A DNA stretch of 64,000 bases from Bacillota bacterium (GTDB lineage Bacteria > Bacillota > Negativicutes > Sporomusales > CTSoil-080). The number at the start of each line of letters is the position of its first letter. Position 1 is the stretch's first letter. The stretch is from assembly GCA_017889625.1 (NCBI GenBank), contig JAGGAD010000016.1, forward strand, positions 1-64,000. Direction: 5' to 3'. The notes beneath the pieces were generated by a model, which made no database searches, was not told the DNA's origin, and saw only the letters and a list, made by a program, of their open reading frames with translations. Shown one piece after another: positions 56,417-56,880 of this stretch. The translations under genes and the position numbers were made by a program.

Positions 56417-56880
56417 AATCATTATCCTCCTCGTTTTTTAATTGAAAAACCAAGGCCGATACGTTATAATGTAACGTAGGCAATTCGAATAAGCCCTGGT
56501 TGGTATCGGGGGTAAATTTCTTTGCCACAGCTCTATGAATATTGCCGTATTCATAGAGCTTTTAATTTTTCCTGTGAACTGTAAACTATGACACCTCCTT
56601 TCAAATAGTGCTGAATAAGCATATTGGGGCTAATAAACAGTTGTTTATTAGCCCCAATGCTTTCATACTGCGTGTTTTTAACCACAGCCATGTTAAATTA
56701 TGGGAAATAAATACAAAAAGCTTACTAACGAAAAATCCGTTTGTAAGCTCCATTGCTTAGTATTTGTTATTGACACAAATATATCACAGCCTAGTTTACT
56801 TTGCAATAGCACAAAATATATTCGCAATATTAAAATTAATCAAACATATTTTTACTTATAACAAATATCCAATTTTATTA
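56417..56880 (-). promoter_or_regulatory. Long structured leader and promoter region of nifH
   Basis: A minus-strand promoter TTGCAA (56806-56801) with TATATT (56783-56778) and 17-base spacing gives a start near 56771. A hairpin with AGCTTAC / GTAAGCT arms (56749-56719) and a T run follows after about 20 bases and looks like an early terminator. Then come a perfect 16-base hairpin (56657-56624), an orphan AAAGGAGGTG, and a 13-base hairpin (56560-56529) that covers the ATG of a 38-codon frame. I saw no sigma-54 or NifA site. Confidence 0.6.
56438..56554 (-). CDS. Possible 38-residue leader peptide before nifH
   Basis: An open frame of 38 codons starts at ATG 56554, inside a hairpin, and ends 21 bases before nifH. 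It encodes NLPPIPTRAYSN in its middle and ends RPWFFN. It lacks a nearby ribosome site. A strong AAAGGAGGTGTC further upstream opens only if ATA is used, giving 12 codons whose TGA overlaps this ATG. It could be chance; no homologue is known to me. Confidence 0.25.
   Translation of the reverse strand: MNTAIFIELWQRNLPPIPTRAYSNCLRYIITYRPWFFN

Follow-up and report, generated by a model that had tools for sequence, protein, structure and literature searches.

The closest described counterparts of the leader considered here are the targets of ANTAR proteins of the EutV type, as found in the eut leaders of Enterococcus. In the part of PMC3369931 available to us, the 13-mer AGCAANGRRGCUY is reported at EutV-controlled terminators, together with an A1/G4 hexaloop lying over the terminator and a receiver-ANTAR protein accompanied by a histidine kinase. 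The same text already predicts nitrogenase as an ANTAR target in Pelobacter carbinolicus, and ANTAR control of nif is therefore not a new idea. A second counterpart is EutX/Rli55, a small RNA with its own promoter beside ANTAR-controlled genes which, in the available part of PMC5821096, sequesters EutV and can lie in reverse orientation. Structured RNAs transcribed against the gene that they regulate are exemplified by the antisense-acting riboswitches of Clostridium ubiG and Listeria pocR, located at the 3' end of the target in the text available from PMC9943018. Finally, the non-coding RNAs NfiS, NfiR and sRNA154 (Pseudomonas stutzeri or Methanosarcina) tune nif expression and, in the excerpts of PMC9170634 at hand, are described as acting through mRNA stabilisation of nif targets.

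The nifH leader analysed here resembles the EutV targets in its 13-mer, in an A1/G4 hexaloop over a terminator and in the presence, in the genome, of a receiver-ANTAR protein with a histidine kinase. It differs from them in having two predicted terminators in tandem, some 90 nt apart, and a predicted antisense RNA gene downstream. The product of this gene is represented by R1, a covariance model built from 30 nifH leaders (the own genome plus 29 relatives), which match it by construction, matches elsewhere being independent. Like EutX/Rli55, it would be a small RNA that has a promoter of its own and neighbours ANTAR-controlled genes; however, R1 has no conserved ANTAR-binding hexaloops and is antisense to the leader. 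It shares with the ubiG and pocR riboswitches a structured RNA transcribed against the regulated gene but is found at the 5' leader, with no known ligand or Rfam aptamer, and its arrangement as an antisense gene within the nifH leader distinguishes it from the descriptions of NfiS, NfiR and sRNA154. In our searches of the open-licence literature, we found no account of a Negativicutes nifH leader that contains an antisense RNA gene, and this gene, compared with the ANTAR attenuator, is the more novel part of the locus.

The locus belongs to a stretch of 64,000 nucleotides (the window) from a member of the Negativicutes. The nif genes are on the - strand, where nifH is the first gene of the operon and is followed by two PII-like genes, nifD and nifK, and then by frames reading as nifE, nifN and nifB; a TetR-like gene, recognised by reading, adjoins the leader. 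In the direction of nifH, the leader contains a near-palindrome, a sigma-A-type promoter, a hairpin with a U tract, a 17-nt hairpin, a Shine-Dalgarno-like sequence and a 13-nt hairpin (Table 1). Overall it folds at z -6.5, far better than its own shuffles. To our knowledge, little work has addressed how anaerobic Firmicutes that lack a NifA-type promoter regulate nif.

Table 1. Features of the nifH leader, listed in the direction of nifH; positions are those of the window
Feature	Position	Strand	Remarks
Near-palindrome AATATTGCGAATAT	56818..56831	-	upstream of nif promoter
Sigma-A-type nif promoter (candidate), TTGCAA-17-TATATT	56778..56806	-	9/12 match; start estimated at ~56771
ANTAR/EutV-type 13-mer AGCAATGGAGCTT, mini-hairpin AGC-AAUGGA-GCU	56745..56757	-	exact pattern match to published consensus
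Predicted attenuator terminator 1, hairpin 56756-56713 and U tract	56706..56756	-	-17.8 kcal/mol, z -5.4
Predicted attenuator hairpin 2, opening with related AGCATTGGGGCTA	56623..56661	-	17-nt perfect arms 56658-56642/56639-56623
Extended Shine-Dalgarno-like sequence AAAGGAGGTG	56592..56601	-	between attenuator and antisense gene; pattern match in 29/30 leaders
Predicted antisense RNA gene, stems P1-P3	56472..56568	+	model R1 match, 74.8 bits; RNA expected from ~56477
P3, terminator hairpin of antisense RNA	56529..56560	+	T run on + strand
Antisense promoter, TTGAAA-17-TATAAT	56442..56470	+	11/12 to TTGACA/TATAAT
nifH	55589..56422	-	NCBIfam nifH 457.8 bits, above cut-off

A preliminary description of this DNA had placed a sigma-A-like promoter ahead of the leader hairpins. 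The promoter-like pair is indeed there, with a TG preceding the -10 element, and a comparable promoter is seen by eye in the same position in a number of relatives; however, the pair matches at only nine of twelve positions and on its own is at the level of chance (8 sites found, 7.4 expected). The same description saw no sigma-54 promoter, in agreement with a scan of the nif strand of the leader in which no -24/-12 element was detected with up to two mismatches allowed, despite sigma-54 itself being encoded in the genome. Upstream of the promoter, a sequence like AATATTGCGAATAT recurs in about 15 of the 30 leaders (pattern TT[GC][CT]GA, judged by eye) and is a possible activator or repressor site of some DNA-binding regulator. 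Its recurrence would suit a scheme in which nif is controlled mainly at initiation through this palindrome, the leader hairpins having no regulatory part. Such a scheme appears improbable, given that ANTAR 13-mers with terminators are kept in 26 of the 30 leaders and appear again before nifV, although control at initiation and attenuation in the leader may coexist.

The first two leader hairpins point to attenuation. The first, which had already been noted as a hairpin with a T run shortly past the promoter, begins approximately 15-20 nt beyond the likely nif start, and its 5' arm is taken up by the AGCAATGGAGCTT mini-hairpin, as in the published EutV mechanism. The second is contained in a stretch (56668-56608) that folds at -29.5 kcal/mol (z -7.1); it scored as a terminator-like hairpin of the nif strand, although its U tract is weak here and, judged by eye, stronger in the counterparts from many relatives. 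Of the 30 leaders, 26 have ANTAR-type mini-hairpins, loop position 1 being G in some of them, and 22 of these 26 have two within the examined stretch. In a set of 80 named nifH loci, the 13-mer was found at 12 of the 14 loci with R1 and at 2 of the 66 without, the reversed control pattern at none of the 80. Whilst the overlap of 13-mer and terminator and the possession of an ANTAR protein are those of an EutV-type target, the P1 hairpin of such targets (an A1/G4 hexaloop 5-12 nt upstream) was not found at that spacing in the window, and in the leaders of relatives only isolated candidates were seen, all in the promoter region. The two hairpins probably constitute a tandem ANTAR-type attenuator that stops transcription early. 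Premature termination with ANTAR-type antitermination is supported for both by the 13-mer lying over the terminator, its recurrence among relatives, the single ANTAR gene of the genome and a further site before nifV.

That single gene (PF03861, 7.4e-22) is located on a contig other than the nif contig and encodes a receiver and an ANTAR domain; it adjoins a gene for a HisKA_2 histidine kinase, and a groES-like frame follows downstream. Of the 60 genomes in the relatives' set, 55 have ANTAR genes, including genomes without a close nifH, so that by presence the protein is not nif-specific. Pattern AGCRANGRRGCTY has five matches genome-wide, two of which are followed by a terminator, those of nifH and nifV. 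The nifV site (L085:1513, - strand) combines the ANTAR 13-mer with a terminator stretch of 91 nt at -34.5 kcal/mol, and a 5-bp hairpin with a UUUC loop immediately precedes the 13-mer. Across 20 genomes of relatives, AGCAANGRRGCTT was matched 78 times and the reversed pattern 19 times. A wider ANTAR regulon was considered on this basis and rejected: among 20 hand-picked AGCAANGRRGCTT stretches, nifH leaders left out, a terminator was found in one, before a gene that reads as amidohydrolase-like, and most matches elsewhere look like chance.

The preliminary description had counted two long perfect hairpins before nifH and had proposed premature termination and antitermination by an RNA-binding regulator, suggesting a search for ANTAR genes in the genome and for conserved leader structure in relatives. 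Both searches were productive, the former yielding the gene described above and the latter the ANTAR-type sites (26 of 30 leaders) and an antisense layout common to all 30, the own leader included in each count. The proposal itself is supported for hairpins 1 and 2, with the reservation concerning P1. The 17-nt and 13-nt repeats both exist, but the latter, the third hairpin of the leader, belongs to the antisense gene, of which it is the + strand terminator.

This predicted gene would produce an RNA of approximately 90 nt directed away from nifH. Its promoter is the top-scoring promoter-like pair in the 2 kb scanned, and its P3 stem is a 13-nt perfect inverted repeat (56560-56548/56541-56529). 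The layout in all 30 leaders is that of a best promoter match of 10-12 of 12 followed, after 70-85 nt, by the end of the terminator stem. A promoter and terminator of its own opposite the strand of the target mRNA are the attributes of a cis-antisense RNA gene, and as a conserved sequence feature this gene is close to certain. Rfam had nothing at gathering score in the window, and scanning 501 bases and 10 related loci at lax settings gave chance matches only.

Conservation of the fold was assessed on 74 aligned copies (73 distinct). Pairing is seen in 88% of cells, and both partners vary in 19 of the 23 pairs. Covariation scored 0.370, compared with 0.183 for shuffled and 0.09-0.12 for slid alignments, the alignment used (A4) having been fitted to the model structure, which favours that structure. 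Which strand carries the fold is indicated by wobble pairs, since 57 distinct P3 hairpins, with the outermost pair and identical hairpins left out, contain 28 G-U pairs on the antisense strand against 2 A-C mismatches, equivalent to G-U on the nif strand. A fuller and less clean count, on the same fitted alignment, has the same direction and is less sharp (P3 36 to 18, P1 54 to 23, P2 17 to 1). The promoter is conserved with the fold: hexamers at 11-12 of 12 occur in 62 of the 74 copies and in 4 of 1480 shuffles, and across 61 distinct promoters, chosen at at least 10 of 12, conservation is 89-100% at hexamer positions and averages 43% in the spacer, related sequences being counted separately in these conservation figures. 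These observations bear on the idea that the element works within the nif leader RNA, as a riboswitch or stabiliser on the - strand, the antisense promoter being accidental. The element does lie inside the leader, and a complementary hairpin folds on the - strand too, but the wobble count in P3 and the conservation of the promoter favour the + strand, and we set this idea aside as very improbable.

Matches of R1 were obtained in 35 of the 60 genomes of the relatives' set, in 53 of 300 genomes of the class and in 2 of 398 genomes drawn from the phylum, both of them members of the class and one being the own genome; these sets overlap, and the own genome belongs to each of them as well as to the 30 leaders. 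Among the nifH matches listed (at least 77% identity, 63-69%, and one at 76%), 81 of all 84 class-wide R1 matches are upstream of and antisense to a nifH-like gene and none is in sense; 70 of the 81 are within 400 nt of that gene and the farthest is at 3.6 kb. Among the same listed matches, 46 nifH loci have an identity of 83% or more and form one clade; R1 accompanies 43 of these and 20 of 23 loci of a 63-66% group, where the five loci typed by a neighbouring gene all proved to be Fe-only nitrogenase (AnfD). R1 is not found at every nifH of the class, as a NifH-like match (E 1e-90 or better) is present in 129 of the 300 genomes compared with R1 in 53. The 14 of 80 named nifH loci with R1 include Sporomusa, itself a member of the Negativicutes, Pelosinus, Lucifera, Propionispora and Anaerospora, and the 66 without it include Clostridium, Desulforamulus and methanogens, also Pectinatus and Propionispira. 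In three genomes, an extra nifH of 86% identity has no antisense RNA (G060:C78, G077:C1:2115126, G085:C49), the other nifH of the same genome having R1.

R1 also occurs before operons whose first gene reads as PII-like and, as a weak match of 35 bits, before a nifD-like gene. Two loci are not nitrogenase loci, L242:8196-8290 and L243:639-729 in genomes G017 and G026, with promoters of 12/12 and 11/12; downstream are, at one, an L-lactate-type MFS gene and then formate-tetrahydrofolate ligase and, at the other, a formate/nitrite-transporter fragment. Conversely, no ANTAR site was found upstream in nine loci of the 63-66% alternative-type nifH group at which the antisense RNA is present, including three typed as Fe-only, and the ANTAR and antisense layers are thus separable. 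Because both kinds of locus exist, the antisense RNA is tied neither to ANTAR control nor strictly to nitrogenase.

The RNA may act as a cis-antisense RNA or by interference, and perhaps in trans. The 5' arm of P3 is complementary to the AUGRRGC part of the ANTAR site: at least 6 of the 7 positions can pair in 75% of 28 genomes, compared with 3% for 7-mers of the RNA generally. Specific pairing of each RNA with its own ANTAR site was tried and rejected, as own pairs were no better than swapped ones and 3950 of 5000 permutations were at least as good. The test on duplexes of the whole RNA with the leader was likewise flat, with -45.2 kcal/mol for own pairs, -44.2 for swapped pairs and -42.0 for a shuffled leader (mean rank 0.48), and the antisense RNA showed no co-variation with the attenuator portion of the leader to which it belongs. 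A serious rival to action in cis, since fold and core are common to different loci, is that the RNA is mainly trans-acting and, by binding a protein or other mRNAs, serves as a 'nif off' signal that overlaps the leader incidentally. The fold and sequence core are shared by nif, alternative-nitrogenase and the two other loci, and the RNA leaves the nifH ribosome site uncovered; a purely trans-acting RNA would, however, have no need of the antisense position upstream of nifH-like genes held by 81 of the 84 matches, and we regard a mainly trans role as possible but rather unlikely. Sequestration of the ANTAR protein in the manner of EutX/Rli55 would fit a short RNA that neighbours ANTAR targets and, as in EutX, lies in reverse orientation, but an A1/G4 hexaloop with a stem of at least 3 occurs in just 8 of the 74 copies and at scattered positions, which makes such a sponge highly improbable.

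The model that we favour, with some reserve, is a two-layer control of nif by ANTAR attenuation and the antisense RNA gene. The operon would be transcribed from the sigma-A-type promoter, and transcription would be held back by the two tandem terminator-type hairpins of the leader. Under nitrogen limitation, the two-component ANTAR protein encoded elsewhere in the genome would stabilise the AGC-AAUGGA-GCU mini-hairpin, which draws on the 5' arm of the terminator, and so allow polymerase to read through. The predicted antisense gene is set between attenuator and nifH and has a terminator of its own; its near-consensus promoter points against the approaching nif polymerases. The RNA would most likely damp leaky nif expression in the off state, through pairing with the leader and transcriptional interference, and the gene would be overrun once nif is fully on. 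The analysis directly establishes the sequence elements with their conservation, orientation and distribution, and the strand to which the conserved fold belongs; that either RNA is made, that the ANTAR protein binds, the signal to which it responds and the effect of the antisense RNA are inferred. The anatomy offers a testable circuit comprising an ANTAR two-component protein, the terminator hairpins of nifH and nifV and an antisense RNA gene.

If the RNA is made, it would represent a broad, nitrogenase-linked antisense RNA family. A more speculative proposal, to which we give limited credence, is that this undescribed, structured family is a built-in regulator of Mo and Fe-only nitrogenase operons in diazotrophic Negativicutes and is shared with a few loci of the lactate/formate type. 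It would respond, directly or with the help of a protein, to one common signal (redox, metal or one-carbon) and, in addition to ANTAR attenuation, would connect these operons in trans.

Several smaller observations accompany these results. The 16S-complementary AAGGAGGTG is kept in 29 of the 30 leaders (56592-56601 in the window, and relatives) with no evident reading frame; a short frame downstream of it was sought by eye in 29 printed stretches and discarded, there being no common start codon or frame. Three weak R1 matches are doubtful, those in G263 (37 bits), G036 (34 bits, between two gene ends) and G037 (32 bits). Eight of the 12 copies whose promoter scores under 11 of 12 are second, distal copies at alternative-type nitrogenase loci with no recognisable promoter (L065:2295-2397, L067:1415-1547, L069:1548-1682, L070:1206-1306, L072:2414-2521, L066:1518-1612, L170:630-763 and L180:528-620), and two further distal copies retain theirs. 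Between the antisense RNA and the anfH-type gene, a small frame of 67-90 aa is present and similar in L064, L065, L070 and L072.
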